From positions 1 through 64,000 of the forward strand of contig JABIDS010000003.1 of the NCBI GenBank assembly GCA_018651605.1: a stretch of DNA of 64,000 bases. Reading direction: 5' to 3'. Positions 22,914 through 56,388 of the stretch are shown here, piece by piece. The translations under genes and the position numbers were made by a program. The notes beneath the pieces were generated by a model. The model searched no databases and was not told the origin of the DNA. It was given only the letters and a program-made list of their open reading frames with translations. The stretch comes from an archaeon. Its GTDB lineage: Archaea > Nanobdellota > Nanobdellia > Pacearchaeales > GW2011-AR1. How positions within the stretch are numbered: position 1 is the stretch's first letter; each line of letters begins with the position of its first letter.

Positions 22914-23102
22914 ATGGATATTCAACAAAGAAAAAAGATCCTGAAACTTCTCGGGGAAAAGAAGGTGATAACGAGTTCCGAACTCGCAAAATTTCTCGGC
23001 ATTAGTTGGAATACTGCCGAGAAATATCTTTTAGAATTAGGAATGGATAACAAAGTTATCAAAATAAAAAAACAAGGGGTGAACTTATGGCTTCTAAAAT
23101 AA
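22914..23102 (+). CDS. Small winged-HTH DNA-binding protein
   Basis: RKKILKLLGEKKVITSSELAKFLGISWNTAEKYLLELGMDNKVIKI; 16-nt overlap with the next gene. Confidence 0.75.
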   Translation: MDIQQRKKILKLLGEKKVITSSELAKFLGISWNTAEKYLLELGMDNKVIKIKKQGVNLWLLK

Positions 23103-23875
23103 ACTTCCCAAAAATAAAACCCTTCAATAACAAATCACAAGTAACAATCTTCATAATTCTCGGACTAATAATTGTAGTAATAGTAATCCTCTTCTTCCTT
23201 CTAAGAGCTCCACCAACAGTAAGAACATTCAACGAAGACGAACCTCAAGCCTACATAGAATCATGCACAAGAGAAGCAGTAGAAAAAGCAATAAATCTAA
23301 CAAGCACTCATGGAGGCGACATCGAACCAAAAGGATTCATAAATTACCTAAGTCAAGACATAACATACTTATGCTATCAGAATAAATTCTACGACCCCTG
23401 CATAAACCAAAGACCATTATTAATAGAACACCTAGAAAAAGAAATAACAAACTACATAAGCCCAATAGTAGAAAGATGCTTCAACGAATTAAAACGAAAT
23501 TTTGAAAAAAGATATAATGTAGAAATGGAATCTCAAATGCAATTAACAACAGACCTTCAGTCAAAAAATATCAACATAAAAATAAATAGAGACTTCAAAG
23601 CAACAAGAGGCGAAATATCCCAAGACTTCAAAAAATTCGAAATGAACCTGAAAAGCCCACTTTACAATTTCGCAGAAATAGCAATGGAAATAGTAAACCA
23701 AGAAACACACTTCTGCAACTTCGACGTAATAGGATACATGTTCCTCCATCCTGAATATGACGTAATTAAATTTATAACTGGTGATTCAGATATTATATAT
23801 GTGATAACAGAGAGGTCGACAGATCAAAAGTTCAACTTCGCAGTTAGAGGATGCGTCATGCCTCCAAGTTTTTAA
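23087..23875 (+). CDS. Pilin-like (class III-like signal) protein, module 1
   Basis: NNKSQVTIFIILGLIIVVIVILFFLL N-terminus; paralogous to 27411, 32403, 36189, 41909, 43278. Confidence 0.75.
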   Translation: MASKINFPKIKPFNNKSQVTIFIILGLIIVVIVILFFLLRAPPTVRTFNEDEPQAYIESCTREAVEKAINLTSTHGGDIEPKGFINYLSQDITYLCYQNKFYDPCINQRPLLIEHLEKEITNYISPIVERCFNELKRNFEKRYNVEMESQMQLTTDLQSKNINIKINRDFKATRGEISQDFKKFEMNLKSPLYNFAEIAMEIVNQETHFCNFDVIGYMFLHPEYDVIKFITGDSDIIYVITERSTDQKFNFAVRGCVMPPSF

Positions 23876-23887
23876 AAAAGAGATAAA

Positions 23888-26800
23888 ATGAAACCCTACT
23901 TAACAAAAAAAGCAAGCATATCCTATCTCCAAATATTCCTCTTACTCTTAGCATCATTCTCAATCCCTTACTTAATTTATTCAAACACTCAAACAATCCA
24001 AGCACAACCACTCCAAGGAGAAGTTTGTTGCGAAGAAACAATCCAAGGAAACTCTTGCCAAAACACTCAATCAACAAACTGCAACCCAGATTTAAAAATC
24101 ACTCCAACAACTTGCGAAACAACAGATTTCTGCGAAATAGGATGTTGCATCAGTCCTGAAAATGGTTTATGTAATAAAAGAACATCAAAAAGAGATTGCG
24201 AAATAGAGGGAGGACTCTTTGAATCAGAAGCACTTTGTCAAGTAAACCAATGCGAATTAGGTTGCTGTATTTTAGGAAGTGAAACAAAATGGACAACAGA
24301 AAAAAATTGCGAATTTGAAGGCAACTCTCAAAACAATGACATACCAACAGAATGGCTATTAGATGCAGAACACAACTCAGAAATAAAATGTAAATTCTCT
24401 GCAGAAAAACAAAATCAAGGAGCTTGCACTTATGACTCTAACGACGAAAAAAGATGCGCATACGAAACACTTGAAGAATGCGTTTCAAGAACAGGAAGCC
24501 AATCAAATTTCTTCCAAGACACTTTATGTTCAAATTCAGAACTAGGAACTGTCTGCAAAGCAAAAGATCATCAAGCATGCCTTGAAAACGAAGAAGACAT
24601 CTATTGGTTTGATTCTTGCAACAACAAAGAAGATGTAGCAGAAGATTGCAACATACTCCAAGGAACTTACTGTCAAGAAGATGATTCAGGAAAACCCTCT
24701 TGCGAAGATATAAACTGCAACAACATCGGAAGAAAACATGGAGAATCTTGGTGCGAATATGACGGAAGAATCGGAGACGGAAAAGACCCTGTAGGAAGCA
24801 GACATGAAAAACACATCTGTTACATGGGCTCAGAAAGAATAGAACCTTGCGCAGACTATAGAAACGAAATCTGCGTCCAAGACAACAGCGCAATAGATTC
24901 AGGAACATTTTCACAAGCATCATGCAGAGCAAACCAATGGAGAAATTGCTTAAACATTAATCAAGAATCAGGAAAAGAAAAAATAACAAGCGCATGTGAA
25001 AAAAACCCAGACTGCCGAGTAAAATCAATAAACATGGGAGGAAGTTTCGCTTTCACAGTCTGTGTTCCAGGTTATCCTCCAGGATTTGATTTAATTAACA
25101 ACGAGGCAAACAATGTCTTAAACGACGACGGAACAATCAATGAACAAGCATACAATACAATAAGCCCAGGTGCAGGAATTTGCAGCATGGCAACAAAAAG
25201 ATGCACAACAACATGGATGGTAGGATTATTCTGCCCAGGTTGTATAGATAATTGCAAATGCCACACAGACTATTTCACAGAAGAAATGAACGACTTTTGC
25301 ACAAGCTTAGGTGACTGCGGAGGCTCAATAAACTATGTAGGAGAATATACAGACTCAGGATATTCAGTAAAATCCTCTGGAGGAGGAAGCCCAGGAAAAG
25401 TAGCAGGAGACACTTCAAACACATTTTCAGGAACACCTGCAAAACCCGGAAATTTCGAATTCTATGAAACATTAAATCCAGAACTATTAAGAAAAGCAGG
25501 AGGAGAAAACTCATCTTCAACACTTTCAGCATTTGACCAAGAATTAATGCAAGTAGCAGGCGCCTACGGTTCACCACTTTTATTAAAAATGTTACAAGAA
25601 GGAGATGAAAACGAAAGCAAATGGGTAAGCGGAGTTTCAGCAGGTGGAATGGGAGAAGTAAACTACGCAAGATATACTGGAGGATTTTCAAGTGCATTAA
25701 GTTCAGCAATAAGCGCACAAATAACACCTTACGACGCAAAAGAACCTCAAGACTTTTCAATGATAGCCGCAATGATTGCAGGAATGATAGCATTCATAAT
25801 AACTGCAAGTATTATGGCAACAATGCTAGCATCAATGTTAGCCTTCCTATTATTCATGCCTTGCATAATTGTAACATATAATATTGACTTCACATGTAGT
25901 TCATGGGAACCTCCAAACCACGGAGGAAAATGTAGCGAATGCAACAAATTAGACAGCACATGCAGCGAATACAAATGCGAAAGCCTAGGAGAATTATGCC
26001 AATTCATTAACAAAGGAACAGACCATGAATTATGCGTAGACATTCCAGAAAACAAAGAATATCCAATAATACAACCATTAGAAAGTGTAATCACCGAAGG
26101 ATATGAATATAAAAATATTGACGAGAATGGATTTGAAGTTGTAGATTCATTAACAAATGATTGTATAGACGCCTACAAAACAGTAAGATTCGGAATAAAA
26201 GTTGCACCATTCGCAAGATGCAGATTAGGAACAGAACCTTCTCAAAAATACGACGAAATGGCAGACCTATTCGGACCAAAAGGAAACGTATTATTACCAG
26301 TTCATAGAATGGATTTATTCTTCCCAAGTCCAGATGCATTCAAAAACCAATACAACTTAACAGAAGAATCAATAGAAAGATTAGGAAAACTAGAATATTT
26401 TGTAAAATGTAAAACAGCAAGCGGAAAAATAAATCCAGAAACTTACAAAATAAAAACTTGCATAAATCCCGGTCCAGACTTAACAGCTCCAGTAATAAAT
26501 CCATTAACAACTCCATCCAACAACGCCCCTCTAAAATACAACACAACACAACAAACAATACAAATCTACACAAACGAGCCTTCAGAATGCAAATGGGACA
26601 CAAGAGAAAAAGAATTCACACAAATGGAAAACCAATTCAACTGCCAAACAGATTTAACAAAATACACCTTATTCGGACTACCTTGCAACACAACCTTAAC
26701 AGATTTACAAAACAACACAAAATTCTATTTCAAATGTAAAGACCAACCATGGTGGAAAGGAACAGAAAACGAATCAAAAAGAAACATCATGCAAGAAGGC

Positions 26801-27370
26801 TTTGAATACAATTTCTTAGTTTCAAAAGATCCATTAATAATAGAAGAATTCCTACCAAGAGAAGGACAAGTAATCACAGAAGGATTCGAACCAGTAAGCA
26901 CAACAATGAAACTCACAACATCAGGAGGAGTAGAAAAAGGACAAGCCATATGTTCATACAAATTAAACCAATTCTCAATGGTAGACCTAATAGAAACAAA
27001 TGACACAGTCCACACTCAAGAATTCCAATCTTTAATGAAAGGCTACTATAAAATAGAATTCATATGTGAAGACATTGCAGGAAACAAAGCAAACCAAACA
27101 ACAACATTCAAAATCCAGATAGATAACACAGGCCCGAAAATAGTAAGAGTCTATTACGAATCAGGATTAAAAGTAATCACAGCAGAATCAGCAGAATGCA
27201 AATACGACTTCAAAAGAAACTTCATTTTCGACAACGCAACATCAATGTACACAACAAACGAACTAGAACACTTCGGAGAATGGGAACTAAAAAACTACTA
27301 CATCCAATGTCAAGATCAATATAAAAACAAAGGACCTAAATTAAAAGTTAAAGGATACGAGATGTTCTAA
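23888..27370 (+). CDS. Giant Cys-rich secreted/membrane protein, module 1 (fused form)
   Basis: Signal/TM N-terminus; VCCEETIQGNSCQN, GCCI repeats, GESWCEYDGRIGDGKDPVGSRHEKHICYMGSERIEPCADYRNEICV; internal TM at ~25760-25880. Confidence 0.75.
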   Translation: MKPYLTKKASISYLQIFLLLLASFSIPYLIYSNTQTIQAQPLQGEVCCEETIQGNSCQNTQSTNCNPDLKITPTTCETTDFCEIGCCISPENGLCNKRTSKRDCEIEGGLFESEALCQVNQCELGCCILGSETKWTTEKNCEFEGNSQNNDIPTEWLLDAEHNSEIKCKFSAEKQNQGACTYDSNDEKRCAYETLEECVSRTGSQSNFFQDTLCSNSELGTVCKAKDHQACLENEEDIYWFDSCNNKEDVAEDCNILQGTYCQEDDSGKPSCEDINCNNIGRKHGESWCEYDGRIGDGKDPVGSRHEKHICYMGSERIEPCADYRNEICVQDNSAIDSGTFSQASCRANQWRNCLNINQESGKEKITSACEKNPDCRVKSINMGGSFAFTVCVPGYPPGFDLINNEANNVLNDDGTINEQAYNTISPGAGICSMATKRCTTTWMVGLFCPGCIDNCKCHTDYFTEEMNDFCTSLGDCGGSINYVGEYTDSGYSVKSSGGGSPGKVAGDTSNTFSGTPAKPGNFEFYETLNPELLRKAGGENSSSTLSAFDQELMQVAGAYGSPLLLKMLQEGDENESKWVSGVSAGGMGEVNYARYTGGFSSALSSAISAQITPYDAKEPQDFSMIAAMIAGMIAFIITASIMATMLASMLAFLLFMPCIIVTYNIDFTCSSWEPPNHGGKCSECNKLDSTCSEYKCESLGELCQFINKGTDHELCVDIPENKEYPIIQPLESVITEGYEYKNIDENGFEVVDSLTNDCIDAYKTVRFGIKVAPFARCRLGTEPSQKYDEMADLFGPKGNVLLPVHRMDLFFPSPDAFKNQYNLTEESIERLGKLEYFVKCKTASGKINPETYKIKTCINPGPDLTAPVINPLTTPSNNAPLKYNTTQQTIQIYTNEPSECKWDTREKEFTQMENQFNCQTDLTKYTLFGLPCNTTLTDLQNNTKFYFKCKDQPWWKGTENESKRNIMQEGFEYNFLVSKDPLIIEEFLPREGQVITEGFEPVSTTMKLTTSGGVEKGQAICSYKLNQFSMVDLIETNDTVHTQEFQSLMKGYYKIEFICEDIAGNKANQTTTFKIQIDNTGPKIVRVYYESGLKVITAESAECKYDFKRNFIFDNATSMYTTNELEHFGEWELKNYYIQCQDQYKNKGPKLKVKGYEMF

Positions 27371-27410: not shown

Positions 27411-28226
27411 ATGAAAACAAAAAGAGGCACAATGAATTTCAAACAACCAGTCTTAAACCTAACTCCATCTAACAACAAGTCACAAGTAACAATCTTCATA
27501 ATCCTAGCAATAGTTTTAATTTTTGTAATAGCAATAATTCTCTACAACCAAGGACAATTCACAAACATTTTCAAAACTCAAACACCTTTAGAACAAATCG
27601 CAGAATGCTCACAAGAACATCTTCAAGAAGCCATAACCCTAATCTCAACTCAAGGAGGAGCAACAAATCCAACTAACTACTTCCTTTACCAAGATAACAA
27701 AGTAGATTACATCTGTTATACAAACGAAAATAACAGACCATGTAAAATGCAGAAACCAGTTTTAAAAACTTCAATAGAAAACGAACTAGAAAAATACACA
27801 ACACCAAAAATAAAACAATGCATAGAATCAACAAAAACAACTTTAGAAAAAAAAGGTAAAACAATAACACATCAAAACCCAGAAATCTCAATAGAACTAT
27901 TACCTAACAACGCAATAATCACAATAGACCTCAATCTTCAAATAAAAGACTCAGAATCAACACAATCATATAAATCAATAAATACCGACGTCAACACAAT
28001 GTTATATGACTTCATTGCAATAACAAGCGAAATCGCAAATGATGAAGTTGAATTCGGAGACACAGAAACAATAAACTACATGTTAACCAATCAACCTTGG
28101 CTACAACTTGAAAAAAAGAAACAATCAGAAGGCACAAAAATCTACACACTAACAGACAGAGAATCAGATACCAGCTTCATCTTCGCAACACGAAGCTTGG
28201 TAATATCTACTGGAGGAGTGAATTAA
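27411..28226 (+). CDS. Pilin-like protein, module 2
   Basis: NNKSQVTIFIILAIVLIFVIAIILY; paralogous to 23087. Confidence 0.75.
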   Translation: MKTKRGTMNFKQPVLNLTPSNNKSQVTIFIILAIVLIFVIAIILYNQGQFTNIFKTQTPLEQIAECSQEHLQEAITLISTQGGATNPTNYFLYQDNKVDYICYTNENNRPCKMQKPVLKTSIENELEKYTTPKIKQCIESTKTTLEKKGKTITHQNPEISIELLPNNAIITIDLNLQIKDSESTQSYKSINTDVNTMLYDFIAITSEIANDEVEFGDTETINYMLTNQPWLQLEKKKQSEGTKIYTLTDRESDTSFIFATRSLVISTGGVN

Positions 28227-28227
28227 A

Positions 28228-30051
28228 ATGACAAAACAAAAAACATTAACCCTATTAATATTCACACTACTAATAGCAACAACACTAACAATAGCACAAG
28301 AAACTCAACCTTGGCCAGCCTACAACGTCTGTTGTGAAAAAACAGAATCCGGAGCATGGTGTCAAAACGCACCAGAAGAAGATTGCAACCCAGACTTTAG
28401 AACAACAGCAACAAGTTGTGAAGCAACAAGTTTCTGTAAATTAGGATGTTGCGTAGATTCTGATGAAGGACTATGCATGAAAAACACACCGCAAAAAACA
28501 TGCGAAGTATCAACAGGATCATGGTTAGAGGACGAACAATGCAACGTCCCTCAATGCGATTTAGGATGCTGCCTTTTAGGAGACCAAGCAAACTTTGTAA
28601 CATTAACAAGATGTAAAAGACTATCCTCAATATACGGACTAGAAACAAATTTCAGAACAGATGTAAGCACAGAAACAGCATGCATTGATTTAGCATTTGC
28701 ACAAGACAGAGGAGCATGCGTATACGAAATAGAATTCCAAAAAACATGCAAGTTCACAACAAGAGCAGAATGCCTAGGCTCACTATCATCTGAATCAAGT
28801 GGAATCGCAGACGCAGAATTCTATAAAGACTTATTATGCTCAGCAGACGAACTTGCAACAGATTGCGGCCCAACAACATCAACAACATGCATAGAAGGAA
28901 AAGACGAAGTTTATTTCATGGACTCTTGCGGAAACCCTGCAAACATTTATGATGCAACTAAAACTAAAACTCCTGCATACTGGAGAAACATTGTCCCAAA
29001 AAAAGATTCATGTGGTTTCAGAAATCCTGACGGAAGCATAGACTCAAGTTCATGCGGAAACTGTGAATATCTTCAAGGAAGTTTATGCGGAAAAGGAAAC
29101 GCAAAATACGGAAGTCTAACTTGCAATGACTTAAATTGTTACAACACTGAAAATGGAGAAGACTACAGAAACGGCGAATCATGGTGCATTTATCAAGGAG
29201 TAATAGACAATGGAAAAGATGTAGCAGGAAGCAGACACTTCAGACACGTCTGTATACATGGTGAAGAAACAATAGAACCATGCGCAGACTTTAGAAACGA
29301 AATATGCATAGAAGAAAAAATGGACACAGTAAACGGAAACTTCATAGAAGCAGCATGCAGACTAAACAGATGGGATGATTGTATAAACCAATTTGAAGAA
29401 GACGATTGCTTAAATTTAGATCAAAGAGAATGTTTCTGGATTAAGGGAATGCATTACGACGGTTCAGGAAGTTCAGCAAAAGCAGCTTCATTAAATGAAA
29501 AAACACAATCACGAACAGGCTCATCACTTGGAAACACAGATACTGAAAAAGAAAACACAGGGATACTAAATGGAGGAGAAATATGCCTGCCTAATAATCC
29601 CCCAGGATTAAAATTCTGGGAATCAGGAGATGCATCAACAGTCTGCGCATTAGGAAACTCAAAACAACTTGTCCACTATTCAACAAGTTTATTCGGAAAA
29701 ACAAAATGTAAAGAAAACTGCGAAGTTAATGAAGCAAAATGGGTCCAAGAAATGAATCATGTCTGCAAAAGTTTAGGAGACTGTGGTTCTTACACAAACA
29801 TTGCAGGAAGATTCACAAACAAAGGAGCAGTATGGAAAAGCGACGGACAAAGAAAAGTTCTAAGTGGAATACTTGGAGATTTACATGAAGCATCAGGCAC
29901 TGCACAACCAACAGAAACAATAGAACCAGAAGGAACAACAACAGAAACAACAACAGAAACAACAACAGAAACAACAACAGAAACAACAACAGAAACAATA
30001 GACCCAGAACCAGAAAACACTTTTGAAAACACAGGAGAAACAACATCATGA
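28228..30051 (+). CDS. Cys-rich secreted protein, module 2 (N-terminal half of split form)
   Basis: GESWCIYQGVIDNGKDVAGSRHFRHVCIHGEETIEPCADFRNEICIEE aligns with 23888; Thr-rich C-terminal tail. Confidence 0.75.
   Translation: MTKQKTLTLLIFTLLIATTLTIAQETQPWPAYNVCCEKTESGAWCQNAPEEDCNPDFRTTATSCEATSFCKLGCCVDSDEGLCMKNTPQKTCEVSTGSWLEDEQCNVPQCDLGCCLLGDQANFVTLTRCKRLSSIYGLETNFRTDVSTETACIDLAFAQDRGACVYEIEFQKTCKFTTRAECLGSLSSESSGIADAEFYKDLLCSADELATDCGPTTSTTCIEGKDEVYFMDSCGNPANIYDATKTKTPAYWRNIVPKKDSCGFRNPDGSIDSSSCGNCEYLQGSLCGKGNAKYGSLTCNDLNCYNTENGEDYRNGESWCIYQGVIDNGKDVAGSRHFRHVCIHGEETIEPCADFRNEICIEEKMDTVNGNFIEAACRLNRWDDCINQFEEDDCLNLDQRECFWIKGMHYDGSGSSAKAASLNEKTQSRTGSSLGNTDTEKENTGILNGGEICLPNNPPGLKFWESGDASTVCALGNSKQLVHYSTSLFGKTKCKENCEVNEAKWVQEMNHVCKSLGDCGSYTNIAGRFTNKGAVWKSDGQRKVLSGILGDLHEASGTAQPTETIEPEGTTTETTTETTTETTTETTTETIDPEPENTFENTGETTS
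29932..29999 (+). repeat. 12-bp coding tandem repeat encoding TTTE units
   Basis: (acagaaacaaca)n, protein ETTTETTTETTTETTTET. Confidence 0.9.
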
Positions 30052-32114
30052 TAAAATCATCATCAAAACTAAAAACCTATTTCTTAATATTAAACTTAGT
30101 TATTTCTATAATTGCAATATCAGCCTTAGTTGGTGCAGAAGAAACAATTCCAGGAACAACTGACAACAAAGATAAACCTGAAGGAACAGATGTAGATGGA
30201 ACAATAGTAGACCCTGACGCAGATGGAGCAACAGGAATCGGAGGAGGAGATGACACACCAGGAGGACCTGATGATGCAACAGGAGACACAACAGGAGGAG
30301 ACACTACTGGAGGCCCAGGAGGCACTGGAACAATTGGAGGAAAAATAAATAGTTTAGGATGGATGAGCGCAATAACTAAAGCAGGAATATTTGCAGGAAT
30401 TGGAGGCTCAATAGGAAATTTAGCAGGAGGAGATGACGGACTTCTTTGGGGCTCAGTTGCAGGAGCAACTGCAGGAGCAATAACAGGATTATTTGAAAAA
30501 CAACTTGGAACTGGAGGAGCAATGTTATTAGGTTTAGGAGTTGGAGCAGCAATATTTTTAGCAACATACAAAAAATCAAGCACAGAACTAGTTGAGTTTC
30601 AATGTTTACCTTGGCAAGCACCAATAGGTGGAGAAGATTGTGAAACATGCCAAGATTTTGAAGATTGCTCAGAATACACTTGCAAAAGTTTAGGACAAGC
30701 ATGCGCAATAGTAAACCCTGGAACATTAGAACAAAAATGCGTATGGCAAAATCCTCACGACGTAAACTCACCAACAATAGAATTCAAAAAAGTAAACAAA
30801 GGATTAACATATAAACCAGACAACAGCTTAAGACCTCCTGCAACAGGTGTTATAATAAACAGAGAATCAGAAACATGTATTCAAGCTTTCACACCATTAG
30901 AATTTGAATTCAACACAAACGAACCAGCACAATGTAAAATAGATTACAACCTAACAACAGGATTTGACGAAATGTCATTCTACGTCGGAGGAGACAGTTT
31001 ACTAAGATACAACCATACAGAAACATTATCTCTACCAGGCCCTGCTACAATAAATGCAATAGCTCCTGAATTAAAAAACAATGGAGAATATAGATTATTT
31101 GTAAGATGTCAAGATGCAAACGGAAACTACAACCAAGACGCATACTCAGTAAGCTTCTGCGTAGACAAAGGCCCAGATACAACACCTCCAAAAATAGTGG
31201 ACGTGAACATTCCAAGCAACAATCCAATTTTATACGACAAAACAAATTTAGAATTAGAAGTCTATCTAAATGAACCTTCAGAATGCAATTGGGACAGAGA
31301 AGACCGAGATTTCAAAGACATGGCAAATGAAATGGATTGCAAATTAAATGTCTGGGAAATGAACTCCCAAAACGTATACACTTGCAAAGCAGACTTAACA
31401 GGAATTGAAAATAGAAAAGAAAACAAATACTATTTCAGATGTAAAGACAAACCTTGGGCAGAAGAAGGAGACAGGAACACAAACTCACAAAGTTACTTAT
31501 ATGTTTTATTAGGAACACAACCATTAAATATAATTGAAGTAAAACCAACAAGTGAAACAATCTCTGGAGCAACAGACGTCATACCAGTATTCCTAGAAAT
31601 AAAAACAGACAACGGACACGACAACGGAGAATCACTTTGTTATTACCACCAAGGCGAACCTTCAGTAGAAGAAGACTACATATTATTCTCTGAAACAAAA
31701 TCAAACATCCACAAACAAAGACAAGACCTTGCTCAAGGTGATTACACTTACTATCTTAAATGCATAGACCTGGGAGGAAACACTGCCTACAATACAACAA
31801 CATTCAAGGTAGAAACAGACAGAGAACCTCCAATGGTGGTAAGAACTTACAAAGAAAGCTCTGAATTAAAAATAATCACAAGCGAAAAATCAGGCTGTTC
31901 TTTCTCAACAAAAGACTGCAACTTTGAAATAGAAGATGCAATACTTATGACAACCTTTGATTCTGAATCCCACACAGCAGAATGGACAAACAATCAAAAC
32001 TATTTCATAAGATGCATGGATGAATTCAACAACCAACCTTATCCAAACACTTGCTCAATTATCCTCAAACCAACACAATTCACAAAACAGGATACAGGTG
32101 TGATTATTTTATAA
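30048..32114 (+). CDS. Cys-containing membrane/secreted protein, module 2 (C-terminal half of split form)
   Basis: ATGA overlap with 28228; CSEYTCKSLGQACAIVNPGTLEQKCV aligns with CSEYKCESLGELCQFINKGTDHELCV of 23888; Gly/Asp/Thr-rich N-terminus and Gly-rich TM. Confidence 0.75.
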   Translation: MIKSSSKLKTYFLILNLVISIIAISALVGAEETIPGTTDNKDKPEGTDVDGTIVDPDADGATGIGGGDDTPGGPDDATGDTTGGDTTGGPGGTGTIGGKINSLGWMSAITKAGIFAGIGGSIGNLAGGDDGLLWGSVAGATAGAITGLFEKQLGTGGAMLLGLGVGAAIFLATYKKSSTELVEFQCLPWQAPIGGEDCETCQDFEDCSEYTCKSLGQACAIVNPGTLEQKCVWQNPHDVNSPTIEFKKVNKGLTYKPDNSLRPPATGVIINRESETCIQAFTPLEFEFNTNEPAQCKIDYNLTTGFDEMSFYVGGDSLLRYNHTETLSLPGPATINAIAPELKNNGEYRLFVRCQDANGNYNQDAYSVSFCVDKGPDTTPPKIVDVNIPSNNPILYDKTNLELEVYLNEPSECNWDREDRDFKDMANEMDCKLNVWEMNSQNVYTCKADLTGIENRKENKYYFRCKDKPWAEEGDRNTNSQSYLYVLLGTQPLNIIEVKPTSETISGATDVIPVFLEIKTDNGHDNGESLCYYHQGEPSVEEDYILFSETKSNIHKQRQDLAQGDYTYYLKCIDLGGNTAYNTTTFKVETDREPPMVVRTYKESSELKIITSEKSGCSFSTKDCNFEIEDAILMTTFDSESHTAEWTNNQNYFIRCMDEFNNQPYPNTCSIILKPTQFTKQDTGVIIL

Positions 32115-32402: not shown

Positions 32403-33230
32403 ATGAAAAAAAGAGAATCCCCTTCACAAAAAAGATCACATGCTAAGCTTCCGAAGGGAGTACTTAGAGGGAGGGTGACTTGTAAGGGAACCGTAGGTTC
32501 CATACGATCACAAACAACCATATTCATAATCCTAACAATCCTAATAATCATCATCATAGCTACACTCTTCATTCTAAAGCCAACCAAACAATCAACACCT
32601 CAACAAATTCAACCATTACAATCATCAATACAATCTTGCATAGAAGAAATCTCCAAACAAGCAATATTTCACATAAGCGAAAGAGGAGGTTACTACAATC
32701 TTCCAGATACAACTCTCGAAAACACAACCCCCTACTATCTTTACAACGACCAAAACCTCATACCAACTAAAGAAAAAATTCAAAGAGAAATCACACTTTA
32801 CATACAAGACAACCTACCTAAGTGCATATTCATAGCAACAGAATTTTCAGATTTCAAAATAACTCAACAACAACCTAGAGCAACAACAGAAATAAAACCA
32901 AACAATATTGAAATAAATATAATCTATCCATTATCAATAACAAAAGAAGAAAAAACTTACCAACTAGAAAATTTCAAAACAAACATTCCAATAAGACTAG
33001 GAACAATCTACAATTCAATTGAACAAATCATACAAGAACAAATCAAAGACCCAACAGCACTAGACCCTCACCACATATATCAAGTATCAAATGAAAACAA
33101 TCTCCAAACAAAAATGCTAGGATTCACTCAAGACTCAGTAATATTCATCATCACAGACAAAAAAACAATAAACCAAAACTACACATTTATCTTTGCAAAT
33201 AAATACATTCCAAAAGAAATTGAAATATAA
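32403..33230 (+). CDS. Pilin-like protein, module 3; leader overlaps structured element copy B
   Basis: IRSQTTIFIILTILIIIIIATLFI; paralogous body SCIEEISKQAIFHISERGGYYNLPDTTLENTTPYYLYNDQ. Confidence 0.7.
   Translation: MKKRESPSQKRSHAKLPKGVLRGRVTCKGTVGSIRSQTTIFIILTILIIIIIATLFILKPTKQSTPQQIQPLQSSIQSCIEEISKQAIFHISERGGYYNLPDTTLENTTPYYLYNDQNLIPTKEKIQREITLYIQDNLPKCIFIATEFSDFKITQQQPRATTEIKPNNIEINIIYPLSITKEEKTYQLENFKTNIPIRLGTIYNSIEQIIQEQIKDPTALDPHHIYQVSNENNLQTKMLGFTQDSVIFIITDKKTINQNYTFIFANKYIPKEIEI
32443..32507 (+). repeat. Structured element copy B
   Basis: CTAAG CTTCC GAA GGGAG TA CTTAG AGGGAGGGTGACTTGT AAG GGAACC GTA GGTTCC ATACGA. Confidence 0.6.
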
Positions 33231-38919: not shown

Positions 38920-38920
38920 A

Positions 38921-44102: not shown

Positions 44103-44103
44103 A

Positions 44104-45735: not shown

Positions 45736-45836
45736 ACTATTCTCAAACCCTTCAACCACTACCAAACCCACCATTCTCCAACCCTCAAACCCCAAACCAA
45801 CCCAATATTTATATACTACTTTTCCCAAATAATAAT

Positions 45837-48800
45837 ATGAAAAAAGGTGTAGAAAAAAAACCAATCCAAAAAGGAAATCTATTAAATATATTTTACATAA
45901 TTAGTTTTATTTTAATCTTAACATCTTTAATTTTTGCACAAACAACTAATCCTTGTGATAATCTAACTGGAGCAGAAAAAGCATATTGCGAACAAGGACA
46001 GAAATTCAAGGAAACATTTGAACAAGGAAAAATACCTAGTGAATCTCTACAAGAAACAATGATAGATAATTTTGATGATTTTTATAAGGGGTTTAAAACA
46101 AATCCAGAAAATTTTGAAACATTGTTTGAAAATTTTTATTCAACACATGCCGAAGGAGATTTACAAGGAGAACATTTAATAGTAGAAGATTTAAGAAATA
46201 AATTTTTACAAAAATTTCTTGAAGAAGGAGATAATGAAAACATTAAAAAATTAATTCAAGCAGGAGGGGATAATTATCGGAAAAAGAATCCTAGTTTTTT
46301 TGGAGATTCAACAGAATCAAGAATAAAGTATGTAGATATTCAAGGAAAAAATATTAAATTTGTTGGTAATAAACTTGCAAGAGTTGATGAAGAAGGAAAT
46401 CCTATTTCATGGATTGATTTTGATAATATGCCTAGATGGACAGATTCAGTTTCATATTATGAAGGAGAAAGAGAAGTTACTATCGGAGGAAAAAAAGAAA
46501 TAGTTAATGACGCTTTTTTCATTCGTATAGATACCGGAAGTGCCCTCAAAACATTAATCGCTGAAAAGGGAAGCTTTGGAAATATTGCAGAAGCAATTGC
46601 TCCTGATGGAAGAACAATTGGATTAGATTTAGGAAGAGATATCCAAAGCATTACACTTGAAGCAGGAGTGAGCCCTGCCGACGCAAAAGTTTCAATAAAA
46701 TGGAAAGATTTAGATGGCAAACTCCATGAAGAAAAATTAGGAAAAGCCCAAATAGGAGAAGAATCATTCGCCTTTTTAGAAGGATTAAGTGGAAATGCAA
46801 AAGACGTTATCCAAGAAATGATGTCAGATTTAGATGGCATCGGACCAAAGATGGGAGAGGATTTAAACGAAGCTCTTGGAACAAATACAGGCAACAGAAT
46901 TAGTTTCTCTTATGGAGGGGATTATGATAGCGAAGAAACAATAATAATGGACTTTGATGAACAGGGAGATATGATAATTAAAGGAAGCGAAGGAGCTACA
47001 ATCATTTCAACAGACTCTGCAGGAAATGTTAATGCTGAATTTAACCCTCTAAAAGAAGGACAAACAGGACACTCAGAAGGACCAGGACAATTTATCTTTG
47101 ATAAATATGGAGATGTTAAAAAATACTCAAATGCAGAGATTAGCATCTATGAAGCAAATCAACACACTGCATCTCTTAGGACAAAAGGAAATGAATTAGA
47201 AGATGTAACAATAATCAGAAACACTTTTGTTGATGCAGTAATGCGGGGAGATTATAACAGGTTAGTTAGGGAAGTAGGTTATGATGTTGAAGATTTAATT
47301 GATGAGTCTATGTCAAATTATCTCCCAAGTGAAATTAAAGCAAGGATTGCAGAAAAAATAAAAAAATATCTCGACGACCCAAACCTAGGTCCTGAAATGA
47401 AAAAAGCCCTAATTAAAAGCTATGATTCTGTTCTATCAACATTACAAGAACAAAGCTCATCCATCGCAAATGATTTTTTAACAAGATATTCCAACACCAA
47501 TCAAGAAGTTATAGAAGACCTTAAAAGACATTTTGTAAATCAAATGACAGATAAGGCTCAAAGTATAGGAAGAGAAGTTATCGGAGAAATTTTACAAGAC
47601 CCTCAACAAGTTAGAGATATCTTAGAAGGAGATTCTTCAATTTTAACAAGAATTCAAAAAGACATTAATGCAGGAGATTACGTTGAAGGAGTTGTAGGTT
47701 CAGATATTTATCAAGAAATTAAAAACACCTTAGAAGAATTCCAAAGAGCTGGGATAATTGATAGCACAGGTTCTATTAGCACCACCACTACTGCAAGAAA
47801 TACTGCAATAAGCCAAATAACAGATAGTTTAGTCCAAGATATCTCAGGAAATTATCAAACCATTACTACTTCAAGTAGTGCAAGTATAAGTCAAGGAGAT
47901 ATAGATATAGATTCTCTTTTTAGTGAATATTTAGTAGGTGCTAACGCACCATTAGAAGTTGCATTTGCAGGATACTTAGAACAGGTTCAAAAAGGAGATG
48001 TTAGCTTTCAAGTTTTAGATAAGAACGGAAATCCATTAACATCAAAAGAAACAGCTAAGAGGGCAATGGGAATTTTCGAAGATGCCCAGAAATATATCAC
48101 AGAACAGAAGAACGAATTTAAAGAAAAATTAATTGCAGATTTCGCTAAAAACAAAAGAACAGGACAAGTTTTAGATGTTCAAGCAAAAGAGTTTTATGTA
48201 AATGGTGGAAACGGAGGAATTTTTAATGCAAATACTGGTTTCAGAAAAATAAGTGTGAATAATCAAGACAAAGATAGTTTCCAGATTTTTAGTAATGGAG
48301 AAGAAGTTGCAAGAGTCCAAGGAAAAAATACTTATTTTTCTAGAATTGTAGACAGTCATCAATATGTCCCAATAGAAGAAATAGTCAATGAAAATTCAGG
48401 ACACCAATTAAAGTTAGCTTCATCTTCAGATCCTTTAACTAGGGGAGATTATAGTATTTATGATGTGAATAGATTAGCCACAAAAACTGCGCGTATTCAA
48501 GCTTATGTTAGGGAAGATGACGGATTTTTAGGAAGAAGGTGGGGAAGAGGGCTCGGACCTAGGGGAGCTTGGCAACATCCAATTGTTGGAACAACCATAA
48601 CTGCTCCAGAAGGCTCAGATATTGGTGCAGATCCAAATTCAAAAATAGAAATTTATGATTTAACAGATCAAATGTCAGGTATTTTGGGAGGAAGAATAAA
48701 AGGAATGGTTAGGGATATGATTGTTCCAGTAGGATGGCCAATGGGACTTGCTGCAGGTTTCGCCCTTCCAGGAGCTGAATCAAGAACAGGAGGCAATGAT

Positions 48801-49295
48801 CAACTTAAAAGTAATATTAATGATTTCCTTCAAACCATGAGAGATAACAACCTAGATATTCCCCCACAAATGCAAGACATAGCTTCAGTTATACAAAACC
48901 CAGAAGCCATGACTACTATTTTAAGATTTGTTTCAGATGAATCAACATTAAAGGGAGGAAATAGCGTTACAATAACTCCAGGATATTTAGCAGTCAATGG
49001 AAAACAAGTAAACACATTTACAACTTCAAATGGTCAGCAAGAAGATTTAGGTCCGGCACTTAGAACATTTATGAGATCTTATAAAAAAATGACAGACAGT
49101 CCAGCATTAGATCCATTTAGATCTTATGGAGGTCTAAAGAGTCTTAGAAATATAGCTCAACAAGCACAATATGTATCTCAAAAAGCTCAACAACAAGGCA
49201 TAGCAAGTTTAACAGACTCTGAAGTAGCAACCTTAAGAAATATGTATATGGGATTCCAGAGAGTAAGCACAAGATCCACATATCGTTATAATTAA
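45837..49295 (+). CDS. Giant secreted protein, module 6
   Basis: ATG 45837 (MKKGVEKKPIQKGNLLNIFYIISFILILTSLIFAQ); long ORF with stalk-like N-terminal part. Confidence 0.7.
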   Translation: MKKGVEKKPIQKGNLLNIFYIISFILILTSLIFAQTTNPCDNLTGAEKAYCEQGQKFKETFEQGKIPSESLQETMIDNFDDFYKGFKTNPENFETLFENFYSTHAEGDLQGEHLIVEDLRNKFLQKFLEEGDNENIKKLIQAGGDNYRKKNPSFFGDSTESRIKYVDIQGKNIKFVGNKLARVDEEGNPISWIDFDNMPRWTDSVSYYEGEREVTIGGKKEIVNDAFFIRIDTGSALKTLIAEKGSFGNIAEAIAPDGRTIGLDLGRDIQSITLEAGVSPADAKVSIKWKDLDGKLHEEKLGKAQIGEESFAFLEGLSGNAKDVIQEMMSDLDGIGPKMGEDLNEALGTNTGNRISFSYGGDYDSEETIIMDFDEQGDMIIKGSEGATIISTDSAGNVNAEFNPLKEGQTGHSEGPGQFIFDKYGDVKKYSNAEISIYEANQHTASLRTKGNELEDVTIIRNTFVDAVMRGDYNRLVREVGYDVEDLIDESMSNYLPSEIKARIAEKIKKYLDDPNLGPEMKKALIKSYDSVLSTLQEQSSSIANDFLTRYSNTNQEVIEDLKRHFVNQMTDKAQSIGREVIGEILQDPQQVRDILEGDSSILTRIQKDINAGDYVEGVVGSDIYQEIKNTLEEFQRAGIIDSTGSISTTTTARNTAISQITDSLVQDISGNYQTITTSSSASISQGDIDIDSLFSEYLVGANAPLEVAFAGYLEQVQKGDVSFQVLDKNGNPLTSKETAKRAMGIFEDAQKYITEQKNEFKEKLIADFAKNKRTGQVLDVQAKEFYVNGGNGGIFNANTGFRKISVNNQDKDSFQIFSNGEEVARVQGKNTYFSRIVDSHQYVPIEEIVNENSGHQLKLASSSDPLTRGDYSIYDVNRLATKTARIQAYVREDDGFLGRRWGRGLGPRGAWQHPIVGTTITAPEGSDIGADPNSKIEIYDLTDQMSGILGGRIKGMVRDMIVPVGWPMGLAAGFALPGAESRTGGNDQLKSNINDFLQTMRDNNLDIPPQMQDIASVIQNPEAMTTILRFVSDESTLKGGNSVTITPGYLAVNGKQVNTFTTSNGQQEDLGPALRTFMRSYKKMTDSPALDPFRSYGGLKSLRNIAQQAQYVSQKAQQQGIASLTDSEVATLRNMYMGFQRVSTRSTYRYN

Positions 49296-49296
49296 A

Positions 49297-51996
49297 ATGA
49301 AAACAACAAAAACAACAAAAACAACCGTCCTTTTAATCTTAGTCTTAACTTTAACTCTCGCACTCATCTCAGCCCCAACACCTCAAGAACTAGAAGATTA
49401 TCTCAGCGGAAGCCAGCAAGAAATTAAAGAAAAAGTAGAAGAGTTCACAGAATTATCTGGAGGAGATAGAAATGCTATTTGGGAAAAAAGTGGTGAAGAA
49501 TATAGCATAGAGAAAGATGTAATGATGAAAGAATATTTAAAATTAATAAACGAAAAAAAGAACCAAGCACTTAGGAGCGGAAATTTAGCAAGTTTTTTTG
49601 GAGGAACACTTGCAAATGTATTAATCAGAGAAGGAAAAAAGAATGACATAGGAGGCTTAAGAATAACCTTAGCCAGCGAAGAATTAAAAGGCTCACAAAT
49701 TGATATAGATATTGATTTTGAAAAGTTTAAAAAGGATTTAGACGGAAATTTAAAAAAATTAGGAATAGACCCTCAAGGTTCTTTATTAGAGGGGGATATA
49801 AAAATCAGAGGATTTGGAAATCCTAAATTAAAATGGTCAGAAGAACAAGGAAAAGAAAATGTAATTGGAGATGGAAAAGTATGGGTAGATATGTCTAACT
49901 TACCAGTTGGAACTTCAAAAATAGAATATGACGGAAGCAAATTCACATTAACATTAAGAGGAGGAGGAAAAGTAGTATTAGAACCAGGAGCAACAAACAA
50001 AGACGGAGGATTAGCATTAGAAGGTTTTGATGTTGATAATCTAAGAGACATTGTTTTTACAGCAGGAACAAATGGAGAAATTAGCATTAATGCAGAAGGT
50101 ATAAAATTAAAAGGAGATGCAGAAGTTCATTACAATGGTTTAGTATTAACTAAAAACCCAAAAGAAGCAGAAGGTTTTGTTAGAGCTACAAAAGACGGAT
50201 TTTATCTCAAAGGAGTTAAAGCAAAAGTAATAAATCCTGCAGGGGAAGGATTTATAGGAATGATCGCAGGAAAAAACGAAAAATTATTAAGAATTGCAAA
50301 TGGACAAGCATTAACCTTAAGGGATTTAGTAAGTATGAAAGATGGGATTTTAGCTAATGCCAACAGTCCAGTTGTAGAAGTAATTCATTTTGATGATGCT
50401 GAGAAAAAAGTGAGCAGAGATAGAGTATTTGCAGGAAGTGTAAGTACAGCTCCGAGTTTTAGGCAACTTATTACAACAAGAGAATCTTTAGGAGACATTT
50501 ATTTCAGCTTCAACGAACAAACAGGAGAAGTCGTAGCAGTTAAAAAAGAAGGAGCATGGGTTAGAATAGGAGATTCTATGACAGAAGATTTACAAAAAAT
50601 TTACACAGCTTCCAGTGATACTGTTCAACAAATAATTACAGATTCATTAAATCCTGAAACAACAGTAGATTATACTTACATAAGGAGTGCACGTAATAAA
50701 GACTTCTGGTTAAGAAGGGGTAAAACAGTTCATGTAGATGCGAAAGTTTTAGATGGAGTTTCTATGAGCATTGATGATGGAAAAATTACTCATGTTAGAA
50801 AAATAGGAGTCAACAACGGAGCATGGCTCAAATTTTCTGAAACTAGTGACATGAGCGAAATCTATGGAACTTCAACCCAAAGGGTCGGAGATTATCTAAG
50901 AACTAGCAAAGATGAAACTATTAATCCTGACCTTGAAAAATATATCGCAAACACAGTCCCTCCAAACACTCCCGACTTCATGATAATTGCAGGAGATAAC
51001 GTCTTAATGGGCGGAGATGTTGAAGTAAATATCCAACAAGATTTAGGAAGTTTAAATTTCTACAATTTAGATGATGATGCAAAAGTAAATGTCAACGGCC
51101 TTAAATTAAGCGCCAATGAACAAGGAAAGTTAGAATACCAAAGAGCTCCAGTCAAAACAAACGAATTCAATGTAGATTATGTTAGTATAACAAACCAAAG
51201 AAGCGACGGAAGTTGGATAACAAGCTCAGATACTTATGAAATCCTAGATCAAAGAGGAGATGCAGGAAATACTCCAATTATAGATTCAGACAGATTTGTC
51301 GCGGGCAGAGAAGTCTTCACAGGCCCATTAGGAGTTACAATTGATGCTTATGTTTCCATGAGTCAGGAAAGCGTAGAAAGAACTGGTGCAAACAAAATAC
51401 AAGAGGGTGGAGATATTAGAGATATTCTAGAAAATGAAGGCTATGAAGTTAGATTAGATACAAAACTTCCAGTTAGTGGCGTAAGTGTTACAGTTAGAGA
51501 CAGTGATAAACTTTTAGATGAAGTTATATTGCCTAGATTAGATGATTGGATTTTAGGACTTGGGGGCAATCTTTTTGAAGGTGAAGGAGAATTGGCAGAA
51601 TGGCTTATTGGAGATAGGCAAATTAAATTACAAACATCACAAAATATTAACAATTTAGTTAGAAGTTCTGTAGTGGGCAAATATAATGGGGGAGAGTTAG
51701 GTATAGGGTTTAGGCATGTCCCAAATAAAAATCCTCAAATTATAGTTTATGAAAATGGAAAAATAATTAACACCGTAAATTTACAAGGGCAAAATGCAAA
51801 ATTGGTAAAAGATATACTTTGGGGAGTTAGAATTGTTCCTTATGTAAATAACGACGTACGTAAGATATGGGGACAAAATATTGGAAATAAAGTTAATATA
51901 AATAATGGACTAGGACGTTGGGAAACATGGAAATGGGGAGGAGTAGCAAATTTAGGAAACACTAAATTAAACAAATATTCAGAATTAGTTAAATAA
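49297..51996 (+). CDS. Large secreted stalk protein, module 6
   Basis: Signal peptide; MSNLPVGTSKIEYDGSKFTLTLRGGGKVVLEPG repeats. Confidence 0.7.
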   Translation: MKTTKTTKTTVLLILVLTLTLALISAPTPQELEDYLSGSQQEIKEKVEEFTELSGGDRNAIWEKSGEEYSIEKDVMMKEYLKLINEKKNQALRSGNLASFFGGTLANVLIREGKKNDIGGLRITLASEELKGSQIDIDIDFEKFKKDLDGNLKKLGIDPQGSLLEGDIKIRGFGNPKLKWSEEQGKENVIGDGKVWVDMSNLPVGTSKIEYDGSKFTLTLRGGGKVVLEPGATNKDGGLALEGFDVDNLRDIVFTAGTNGEISINAEGIKLKGDAEVHYNGLVLTKNPKEAEGFVRATKDGFYLKGVKAKVINPAGEGFIGMIAGKNEKLLRIANGQALTLRDLVSMKDGILANANSPVVEVIHFDDAEKKVSRDRVFAGSVSTAPSFRQLITTRESLGDIYFSFNEQTGEVVAVKKEGAWVRIGDSMTEDLQKIYTASSDTVQQIITDSLNPETTVDYTYIRSARNKDFWLRRGKTVHVDAKVLDGVSMSIDDGKITHVRKIGVNNGAWLKFSETSDMSEIYGTSTQRVGDYLRTSKDETINPDLEKYIANTVPPNTPDFMIIAGDNVLMGGDVEVNIQQDLGSLNFYNLDDDAKVNVNGLKLSANEQGKLEYQRAPVKTNEFNVDYVSITNQRSDGSWITSSDTYEILDQRGDAGNTPIIDSDRFVAGREVFTGPLGVTIDAYVSMSQESVERTGANKIQEGGDIRDILENEGYEVRLDTKLPVSGVSVTVRDSDKLLDEVILPRLDDWILGLGGNLFEGEGELAEWLIGDRQIKLQTSQNINNLVRSSVVGKYNGGELGIGFRHVPNKNPQIIVYENGKIINTVNLQGQNAKLVKDILWGVRIVPYVNNDVRKIWGQNIGNKVNINNGLGRWETWKWGGVANLGNTKLNKYSELVK

Positions 51997-51998
51997 AA

Positions 51999-52354: not shown

Positions 52355-53512
52355 TTACCTTCTCATTTTAATCCTAGTTCTAACGGGATTCCTTGCTGCT
52401 TCCCCCGCTGCTTTAGCCCCTGCTATTCCAGGCCCAATAATCACTTTTTCAATAGCACCAAAATACACATCTTCTAACATTCCCACGAATGTAGGCTCTT
52501 CTTCAAATCTTCTTTTAGCAATCTTCTGAAGATAAGGCTGATAATCAGAAGTTTCAATCAATTCTTCTACAGTTTCTTGAACTGCATTATAAAGAGGGTC
52601 ATCTTTTGAATAAAATAATTCTTTTTCTTCTTCATTTTTCAAAAATCTAGTATCAACCCTCCAACTTATCCAATCATTAAGGGCGTATTTTTTCAATTCT
52701 TCAACTGCTTGTTCATCTGTTAAATCTTCTTCAATCCTATAACCCTGTTTTTCAAGACGACTTTGATAAATAGAAAATTCAAAATTTCCAACCCAGAAAG
52801 GAAAATTTACATTCTTTCCCCTTGTATCTTTTCCATTTATTTTGACATACATATCTCCAAAATAAAGATCACTATTAGATTCACTTTTTTCAGGCTCAAA
52901 AGAAGTATATGGATACCCTCTTAATTTTTCATCTAAAAATATTTTTATCTTATCTGATTCAGTTATATCACCTAAATCAATATCAGAATAAACACCCATC
53001 TTTGATTTAAACACCCTCATCCAATAAAAATCTGGAAAAGTCTCATTTAAAAACAGTACATTACCTGAACCTAATAACTCTCCTGAAAAATATGTTTCAA
53101 ATTCTTCCATATCTGAATGTGAAAAAGCAGATAATGCCTCTTTAGGATGTTTATCTATCCTGTCAATTTTTTCACGAAAATTCATTCTATTCTTATAAGA
53201 ATTATCTTCACTTGATTCAAAAATACCAAATATACCTCCAGAGTATCTATTTTTAAATTCCTCTCCCGTTGGAACTATTTCATCTCTTGTATATTCTGGA
53301 AGAGGTTCTGGAATCACTTCTTCAACAGGTTTTAGATTAGGAATGGTAGGTTTAATAATTGATTCTGGTTGTTCTACTACAACTTCAAGAGAAATATTAT
53401 AAGAATCTTCAGTTGGTTGAGTATCAAGTTTTTTTGAATCAATACATCCTGCTAGAACTAAACTTGCTAAGGTTCCAACAAGCCCATTTCTTAATTTATT
53501 CATAATATCCAC
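52355..53512 (-). CDS. Putative secreted protein with lipobox-like N-terminus
   Basis: LVGTLASLVLAGCIDSKK. Confidence 0.6.
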   Translation of the reverse strand: MDIMNKLRNGLVGTLASLVLAGCIDSKKLDTQPTEDSYNISLEVVVEQPESIIKPTIPNLKPVEEVIPEPLPEYTRDEIVPTGEEFKNRYSGGIFGIFESSEDNSYKNRMNFREKIDRIDKHPKEALSAFSHSDMEEFETYFSGELLGSGNVLFLNETFPDFYWMRVFKSKMGVYSDIDLGDITESDKIKIFLDEKLRGYPYTSFEPEKSESNSDLYFGDMYVKINGKDTRGKNVNFPFWVGNFEFSIYQSRLEKQGYRIEEDLTDEQAVEELKKYALNDWISWRVDTRFLKNEEEKELFYSKDDPLYNAVQETVEELIETSDYQPYLQKIAKRRFEEEPTFVGMLEDVYFGAIEKVIIGPGIAGAKAAGEAARNPVRTRIKMRR

Positions 53513-54265: not shown

Positions 54266-54266
54266 G

Positions 54267-55202: not shown

Positions 55203-55203
55203 A

Positions 55204-55734
55204 ATGAAAAACAAAGGACAACTAAAAATACAAGAAATGGCATTCATGCTCGTCGCAGTAGTTTTCTTTTTCATCCTAGTCGGACTTTTCGCACTTTCAA
55301 TCACCTACACAAACCTCTACCAAAAAGCAAACAAAGTAGCTGAAGACAGAACACTTTCAGCACTAACAAATTTAGCAGACACTCCAGAATTAGCCTGCAC
55401 ATCCTCAAAAGCAAACTGCATAGACGCTGATAAATTAATCTCACTAGTAGGAAATGAAAATTACGAAAACTTCTGGCCATTCTCAACACTAAAAGTCATC
55501 AGACAATCAGCATTCAAAAAATCACAAACATCAATGTCAGAATGCACTTTAGAAAACTACCCTGATTGCGAAAGATTCACAGTCTATGATAAAGAAATAG
55601 AAAACCAAAGAATAATTTCAACCTATGTCGCACTCTGCAGAAAAGAATATGAAAACACATACTCTTACGAAAGATGTGAAATAGCAAAACTAATCGCCGG
55701 AACGGAAATTAAAATACCAGGAGAAAACAATTAA
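55204..55734 (+). CDS. Pilin-like protein (operon gene 3)
   Basis: KNKGQLKIQEMAFMLVAVVFFFILVGLFAL. Confidence 0.65.
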   Translation: MKNKGQLKIQEMAFMLVAVVFFFILVGLFALSITYTNLYQKANKVAEDRTLSALTNLADTPELACTSSKANCIDADKLISLVGNENYENFWPFSTLKVIRQSAFKKSQTSMSECTLENYPDCERFTVYDKEIENQRIISTYVALCRKEYENTYSYERCEIAKLIAGTEIKIPGENN

Positions 55735-55765
55735 ATGAAACCCCTCAATAAAAAACATACACATG

Positions 55766-55861
55766 ATAAGCTTTCGAAGAAAGTACTTAGAGGGAGGGTG
55801 ACTTGTCAATCTAAAAGGAGGATACATCTAATGAACCTTGGTTCCTGGGATACCCTACGAA
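55766..55861 (+). repeat. Structured element copy C, with embedded Shine-Dalgarno and ATG
   Basis: ATAAG CTTTC GAA GAAAG TA CTTAG AGGGAGGGTGACTTGT ... AAGGAGG (55815-55821) ... ATG 55831 ... GAACCTTGGTTC ... CCCTACGA. Confidence 0.6.
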
Positions 55862-56388
55862 AAGCCCAACAAGAAATACTAGGCTTCGTCCTAATAGTAG
55901 TAATCGTCAGCATAATCGGTGTAATCTTCTTAGTTTTAACAATGGGAAGAGCTCCTTCAACAGCTTATAACAGCGTAGAAATATCAAACCTATTAGAATC
56001 ATCAATGCATTACACAACAGATTGTGCAGTCAACTACGTTCCACAATACAAAGACGGACAAGATTTAATAAAATCCTGCTACAACGAACAAATAGGAAAT
56101 TATCTAAACTGTTTAGATGAAAGAAATGTCTGCGATGCATTAAAAACAACAATGCAAAACCTAATCCAACAAACCTTAGACGTCCATGAAGACTCTCCAA
56201 ATAAAGCCTTCAAATTTAACATTTATTTCAGCCCAACAAACGAAGAAGAACCAAATCTACCAATACTAGACATAGACCAAGGACTATTTCAAAACTGCAC
56301 CTCAAGAACAGGCGGAAGTCATCTAATTGATGCAACATTCATAAACTCCGGAACAATCCATGTAGAACTCCAAGTTTGCAAATCATAA
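55831..56388 (+). CDS. Pilin-like protein (operon gene 4); ATG 55831 with SD preferred over 55735
   Basis: AAGGAGG 9 nt upstream of ATG; LRKAQQEILGFVLIVVIVSIIGVIFLVL. Confidence 0.65.
   Translation: MNLGSWDTLRKAQQEILGFVLIVVIVSIIGVIFLVLTMGRAPSTAYNSVEISNLLESSMHYTTDCAVNYVPQYKDGQDLIKSCYNEQIGNYLNCLDERNVCDALKTTMQNLIQQTLDVHEDSPNKAFKFNIYFSPTNEEEPNLPILDIDQGLFQNCTSRTGGSHLIDATFINSGTIHVELQVCKS

Follow-up and report, generated by a model that had tools for sequence, protein, structure and literature searches.

Pilin-like proteins paired with large secreted partners in a gene island of a Pacearchaeota-type DPANN archaeon

Results

Pilin-like genes and their large secreted partners

The DNA analyzed here (the window) is a 64,000-nt stretch comprising positions 1-64,000 of the forward strand of contig JABIDS010000003.1 (labelled C12) in assembly GCA_018651605.1, a 1.0-Mb draft genome that is 84% complete. 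Between genes for PCNA (20907-21638) and a MetK-like protein (56687-57940), the window carries an island with six paralogous pilin-like genes, most of them followed directly by a gene for a large secreted protein, and we found that pilin-like proteins and partners of matching type are inherited together as units. The source is a Pacearchaeota-type archaeon, in keeping with the DPANN origin suggested in a preliminary description made from the letters of the window.

All six pilin-like open reading frames (ORFs), starting at 23087, 27411, 32403, 36189, 41909, and 43278, are open over their full coordinates. All six have the common N-terminal motif, and their paralogy was confirmed with a family profile (E-values of 1e-77 to 1e-99); when the 32403 protein served as query, the remaining five were recovered with E-values between 5e-51 and 5e-10. 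Besides the motif of the 23087 and 27411 proteins (KSQVTIFII), the N-termini read RSQTTIFII, KGQTTIFII, KAQITVFII, and RGQVAIFII. The preliminary description had also assigned all six a common body (KEEKTYQLENF, GGYY, FxFxNKY); this holds for 32403 and 36189 and partly for 41909 and 43278, but not for 23087 and 27411, which form a separate deep clade. Scans of the window proteins against Pfam and NCBIfam returned no family for either the pilin-like or the stalk proteins described below.

To survey relatives, approximately 120 loci were fetched, their ORFs called with a simple script, and the products searched with the family profile. A pair was scored when the next gene lay on the same strand within 200 bp and encoded a protein of 300 aa or more that has a hydrophobic segment at its N-terminus; "secreted" denotes this hydropathy call and not the output of a trained predictor. 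Such a partner followed 132 of 174 distinct family members that had a neighbor, compared with 111 of 1107 other genes of the same loci (Fisher p ~1e-73, a value that is too small because the genomes are related). The median spacing between pilin-like gene and partner was 0 bp and the median partner length 738 aa. When three genes were considered, a partner was present for 148 members and absent for 15, with 13 cut by a contig end, so that 148 of 163 assessable members keep a large secreted gene nearby. This survey, which had been proposed as the check on the pairing, bears it out, as does the window itself, where five of the six genes have a partner directly downstream and the exception, 41909, is followed by a gene on the opposite strand (42709).

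Partner types also track pilin types. On a tree of 167 pilin domains, partner families obtained by BLAST clustering (12 partner states) required 14 changes; shuffled labels required 75 on average. When labels were shuffled only among paralogs of one genome, the mean was 30 changes (minimum 23) against 9 observed. The low count even under within-genome shuffling indicates that pilin and partner types are inherited as units. Among the Cys-rich partners, CysA accompanies pilins of the 23087 type and CysB those of the 27411 type, these being two subclades of one well-supported clade. In many genomes of the same genus, relatives of CysA (23888-27370) start with a class III-like signal (KKA..SY.[EQ]I), and in other genera with an ordinary signal peptide; judged by that N-terminal sequence, CysA with a class III-like start might be a giant pilin.

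Elsewhere in the same genome, three further paralogs were found on C13, one on C23, and a longer one on C20, giving at least 11 family members. Genomes of the same genus contain 1-15 copies and those outside it mostly 1-6, and of 242 genomes sampled across the phylum, 210 have the family. The "33-kb island" of the preliminary description is thus a genuine locus whose size understates a phylum-wide system with further loci in the same genome. On C20 (L003:951-8566), an extended 634-aa pilin-like protein precedes a 1904-aa giant, and long forms of 630-670 aa are common in other families. Two partnerless genes, 41909-42703 and L002:8886-9647, lie close together in the tree, and the copy on C23 adjoins a DegP-like gene; partnerless genes possibly represent a solo type common to all cassettes. 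Family members were also found in a record titled "Methanosarcinales archaeon" (AB_1215_Bin_111; L110 and L122), which probably reflects mixed binning or mislabelling.

Prepilin-type signal and predicted structure

In a 108-row alignment of the family, position -2 was K or R in 100 rows and +3 was T or S in 101; G, S, or A at -1 and Q at +1 occurred in all 108. The motif [KRN][GSA]Q followed by hydrophobic residues was present in 154 of 176 family members and in 13 of 513 other proteins with an N-terminal transmembrane (TM) segment from the same loci, counts that are somewhat inflated because part of the sample was retrieved with the motif as seed: the named loci were obtained with a motif-containing seed, and the loci from a search of the phylum's genomes with a whole-length profile. 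The pilin-like proteins thus show the short hydrophilic leader, small residue (Gly, with Ala or Ser also used in archaea), and hydrophobic stretch of a class III signal. An AlphaFold2 model of the 36189 protein placed an N-terminal TM helix at residues 17-44, with pLDDT above 90 over most of the helix, followed by a weak linker and a confidently modeled α/β ectodomain. The pilin-type signal and helix put forward in the preliminary description, which named failure to predict such a helix as a test, are therefore supported. Foldseek comparison of the model with the PDB and with viral models gave only noise (query TM-scores of ~0.2 or less), and a search of PDB sequences with a profile of the 108-row alignment gave no match.

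The Glu usual at mature position 5 of type IV pilins was absent, and Phe occupied +5 in 104 of the 108 rows. Since Glu5 is often absent from archaeal pilins (PMC4471445) and a hydrophobic residue 5 is a mark of tip subunits such as GspK and PilX (PMC5207764, PMC7541494), a tip or minor role fits the family better than that of a self-polymerizing major pilin.

A repeat of ~40-100 bp (AAGCTTCCGAAGGAAGTACTTAGAGGGAGGGTGACTTGT...) was observed at 32445-32483 and 55768-55806 and, outside the window on C12, at ~102930 and 109055 (L005). All four copies lie on this contig and strand, each at or just before the start of a pilin-like gene. We rejected a structured RNA, as the repeat folded no better than shuffled sequences and had no match in Rfam.

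Organization of the island

The genes of the island are as follows (coordinates, strand, product).

23087-23875, +, pilin-like protein 1 (core, CysA-type clade), 262 aa; profile E 2.4e-77, in the tree clade with CysA partners
23888-27370, +, CysA, Cys-rich secreted partner of 23087, 1160 aa; 5.5% Cys, N-terminal hydrophobic segment, homologous to 28228 (8e-41)
27411-28226, +, pilin-like protein 2 (core, CysB-type clade), 271 aa; profile E 1.6e-77
28228-30051, +, CysB, Cys-rich secreted partner of 27411, 607 aa; 7.1% Cys, signal peptide-like N-terminus
30048-32114, +, third core partner protein, 688 aa, secreted, with Ig-like similarity; Y_Y_Y 7.7e-6 and Big_13 1.3e-5, each slightly below the curated cut-off
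32403-33230, +, pilin-like protein 3 (stalk clade), 275 aa in this frame; E 1.7e-90, with the leader repeat 32445-32483
33193-35100, +, stalk protein with unclassified C-terminal tip, start uncertain (TTG at 33193); stalk profile E 1.1e-28 over residues 61-330
35146-36156, +, 336-aa protein with signal peptide-like N-terminus, from its sequence
36189-36953, +, pilin-like protein 4 (stalk clade), 254 aa; AlphaFold2 model with pLDDT 92.6 and pTM 0.81
36955-38919, +, stalk with putative HExxH metallopeptidase (HEIAH), 654 aa; homologs with related stalk and HExxH in L059, L064, L062, and L063
38900-39529, +, third gene of the metallopeptidase cassette, 209 aa, with signal peptide, ectodomain, and C-terminal TM segment; family of 12 distinct members
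39582-40097, +, 171-aa protein with signal peptide-like N-terminus, from its sequence
40094-41821, -, 575-aa secreted protein; weak similarity to part of 49297 (29% over 100 aa, E 1.7e-4)
41909-42703, +, pilin-like protein 5, solo type without downstream partner; E 3.4e-99, in the tree near the solo copy C23:116888
43278-44102, +, pilin-like protein 6 (stalk8 clade), 274 aa; E 8.3e-98
44041-45735, +, secreted partner of 43278, likely start 44104; related to L001:8133-10322 (1.1e-11)
45711-49295, +, giant secreted protein, likely start 45837 (1152 aa); homologs in other pilin islands (L060 7.6e-54, L065 1.8e-25)
49297-51996, +, 899-aa secreted protein; homologs in L062, L060, L065, and L067
53591-54265, +, minor-pilin-like gene mp1; orthologs in the same order in L043, L051, L061, and L078
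54267-55202, +, minor-pilin-like gene mp2, paralogous to mp1; an iterated profile joins the two
55204-55734, +, minor-pilin-like gene mp3, in the same gene run
55735-56388, +, minor-pilin-like gene mp4, with the leader repeat 55768-55806

An internal start is likelier than the ORF start for the 44041 and 45711 partners. Opposite-strand genes for small lipoprotein-like and secreted proteins lie between modules (52355-53512 and 42709-43173, both on the - strand), and relatives have similar ones. The 40094-41821 product was rejected as a stalk homolog, as the stalk profile does not detect it.

Comparison with relatives separated the island into a constant part and a variable part. In several of them the gene order was PCNA, pilin 1, CysA, pilin 2, CysB, the Ig-like protein, and mp1-mp4, with a MetK-like gene after mp1-mp4 in L061 and L063. 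The Ig-like protein is itself conserved (homologs at 1e-169 to 1e-276). In a genome of the same genus (G007; L051), the Ig-like gene and mp1 have no genes between them, and at this exact junction the window carries ~21 kb of stalk modules (32403-53512); in L061 and L063, stalk-type pilins occur between or among mp1-mp4. The junction comparison indicates that the island consists of an old core with later insertions at one place. The best explanation is that the core (two pilins, two Cys-rich partners, the Ig-like protein, and four minor-pilin-like genes) is constant, and that the stalk modules, whose enzymatic tips can be swapped, were added in particular lineages.

Stalks, tips, and the third gene

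The stalk of the 36955 protein had 28 homologs in the locus set, and 33193 belongs to the same family (1.1e-28). Their C-termini vary among trypsin-like, HExxH, and unclassified; sequence comparison thus demonstrates tip swapping on a pilin-linked stalk, and the stalk and stalk-plus-peptidase architectures of the preliminary description are upheld. Trypsin_2 tips were found in L001:5342 (1e-7) and L066:3971 (3.4e-11), and other partners matched Thioredoxin (7e-13, PF00085, in L001:8133-10322, the relative of the 44041 protein) or Peptidase_M64 (1.3e-9), all above Pfam cut-offs. HExxH occurred in 17 of 146 partners, compared with 0.9 expected from shuffled sequences. AlphaFold2 modeled residues 44-290 of the 36955 protein as all-β with good confidence; the overall pLDDT was 72, the tip was unreliable, and the model had no match in the PDB. 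The putative peptidase assignment of 36955 is accordingly based on HExxH conservation.

Of the 11 non-tandem members of the 38900-39529 family, 10 are encoded immediately after an HExxH protein, with the pilin usually one gene further upstream. A related trunk with unrelated enzymatic C-termini, as in polymorphic toxins, is present in the 28 stalk homologs. The dedicated gene that follows the HExxH partners might encode an immunity protein or an inhibitor, but its product is membrane-anchored and might equally be an anchor or a regulator.

Assembly machinery in the genome

An A24 prepilin peptidase is encoded in the genome and was found in all 38 family-bearing genomes tested. An ATPase/TadC operon that also encodes Pilin_N-like and further class III-like proteins lies at 100-109 kb of the same contig, and C23 carries a second ATPase/TadC locus. 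A third system on C11 (L162; G000:C11:33000-52000) comprises a 764-aa ATPase, a 724-aa platform with nine TM segments, and eight short proteins with N-terminal TM segments. The genome therefore encodes both the prepilin peptidase and the assembly machine expected of a type IV pilin system. At the head of the canonical operon at 100 kb we observed a Laminin_G_3 protein (L005:9-1880; 1e-31).

We rejected a dependence of the family on canonical TadC, as several holders do not have it; we likewise rejected that TadC-less holders have no machine, as the long ATPase-platform pair is present in them. Of the 242 sampled genomes, 238 encode the long (~720-aa) platform at E <= 1e-10, and at E < 1e-140 it was detected in 204 of 210 family holders compared with 10 of 32 non-holders (Fisher 2e-18, uncorrected for phylogeny; twelve of the 32 non-holders were deduced by comparing two lists). 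This co-occurrence makes the long ATPase-platform machine the best candidate for the cognate motor of the family.

Discussion

We propose, at about even confidence, that these genes form a cassette-type surface system in which type IV filament-linked pilins each hold or export their own partner. A cassette would comprise a pilin-type protein that spans the membrane once and bears a class III signal, and its own large Sec-secreted partner, to which metallopeptidase cassettes would add a small membrane-anchored protein. The leader would be cleaved by the A24 prepilin peptidase, and the pilin-like protein would bind its cognate partner outside the membrane. A type IV filament machine, whose genes lie at other loci of the genome, would incorporate the pilin-like protein into the filament, probably at its tip or close to it. 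The filament may then display or expel the partner. Tips would be exchanged by recombination, and the stalk modules probably serve attack on, or attachment to, other cells. The pairing, the joint inheritance of pilin and partner types, the prepilin-type motif, the modeled TM helix, the enzymatic tips, the machinery genes, and the minor-pilin-like genes that adjoin the core in several relatives argue for this proposal, and tip pilins without Glu5 (GspK, PilX) that meet secreted tip proteins or substrates provide a precedent (PMC7541494, PMC5207764). A more specific form of it, which we consider tentative, is a phylum-wide modular effector display of DPANN archaea, in which a filament variant would carry interchangeable cassettes of a Phe5 pilin and a stalk with a swappable tip (metallopeptidase, trypsin-like, or thioredoxin), with a membrane-bound guard for the metallopeptidases, and would target the surfaces of host or prey cells.

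Several observations weigh against a filament-linked system. Residue 5 is hydrophobic in almost all paralogs, unlike that of a self-assembling pilin. In the AlphaFold2 model the helix stops at residue 44 and gives way to a low-confidence linker instead of continuing into a pilin head, and the ectodomain has no Foldseek match to a solved pilin (PDB, E <= 0.001), although a new head on a pilin stem is possible. The islands are not adjacent to ATPase or platform genes, and some many-copy genomes have no recognizable canonical TadC, so that any assignment of a cognate machine is tentative.

Alternatively, the genes may serve secretion and not display, with the pilin-like proteins acting as substrate-specific pseudopilins of a type II secretion-like piston and their partners entering the medium as free enzymes and adhesins. 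Nearly all partners begin with a plain signal peptide-like segment and almost none have a C-terminal TM segment; GspK-type pseudopilins also lack Glu5 and are thought to touch substrates (PMC5207764, PMC7541494), and machinery is encoded in the genome. A single-membrane cell, however, needs no piston across an outer membrane, and the large all-β stalks and the membrane-anchored third gene suit retained proteins better. We consider release less likely than the filament-linked reading, though a serious alternative, and give the same weight to a membrane tether without a filament, in which the pilin-like protein, cleaved or not, would anchor its partner to the envelope or S-layer and the signal would serve only membrane insertion. 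The prevalence of Phe at +5, the flexible linker after the helix, the lack of a detected pilin fold, and the several holders without canonical TadC all agree with a tether. The cleavage context of G, S, or A before Q is nevertheless fully conserved in the alignment, as A24 processing would predict; A24 is kept in every holder tested, minor-pilin-like genes belong to the locus, and another ATPase-platform machine remains in TadC-less holders. An ordinary cluster of unrelated secreted proteins, paired by chance or co-expression only, might be expected in a small, gene-dense genome with loci rich in secreted proteins, where 10% of background genes have a large secreted neighbor, but is very improbable given that pairing holds phylum-wide and that, within genomes, the type of the partner can be predicted from that of the pilin.

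How DPANN episymbionts contact and exploit their hosts is largely unknown, and the family supplies named genes to look for in co-culture proteomes and tomograms. Type IV pili are already known in DPANN archaea (PMC4858521, PMC11291902, PMC9938205); we found no earlier description of the pilin/partner family in the open-access papers that were searched.

Among known systems, the filament-linked cassettes proposed here recall PilY1/PilC and the PilX-type minor pilins of type IVa pili, where a pilin without Glu5 is encoded beside a large secreted tip protein (PMC7541494). In M. xanthus there are three PilY1/minor-pilin clusters, and several clusters have been proposed to give alternative tips (PMC7541494). 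The resemblance to minor pilins with PilY1-like proteins noted in the preliminary description is sound as regards layout, but the window partners show no usable similarity to a known tip-protein family: Pfam scans of the large partners gave no usable match save the weak Ig-like ones and detected no PilY1 domain (the C-terminal β-propeller of that family), divergent propellers being possible. The cassettes differ further in that the ectodomain does not have a known pilin fold, the pilin-like genes, 41909 apart, come with partners of their own, and the machine is archaeal. GspK of the type II secretion system is likewise a larger pilin-like protein with a hydrophobic residue 5, thought to be located at the tip and to meet secreted substrates (PMC5207764), but there is one per system, compared with up to 15 paralogs here.

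A survey by Makarova et al. (2016; PMC4858521) covered archaeal type IV pili, which share an ATPase, TadC, and class III pilins with the present system. It describes some pilus loci that include a large signal-peptide protein, interpreted as an adhesin or minor pilin, and an ATPase clade in nanoarchaea without identifiable cognate pilins, for which lineages our family offers candidates; the parts consulted here do not describe paired, multiplied cassettes. In the same lineages, Hamm et al. (2024; PMC11291902) reported that cluster 2 DPANN conserve two type IV pilus loci, with CpaF/TadC machines and coiled-coil proteins. Their genes differ, and as described these loci do not contain the cassettes, but the CpaF/TadC machines are possibly those that the cassettes use. 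Finally, the SPEARE proteins of Nanohaloarchaeota (PMC6642349) are also giant surface proteins of an episymbiont that combine protease and adhesion domains; they are, however, single polypeptides with their own TM domain, with neither a pilin partner nor a cassette array.

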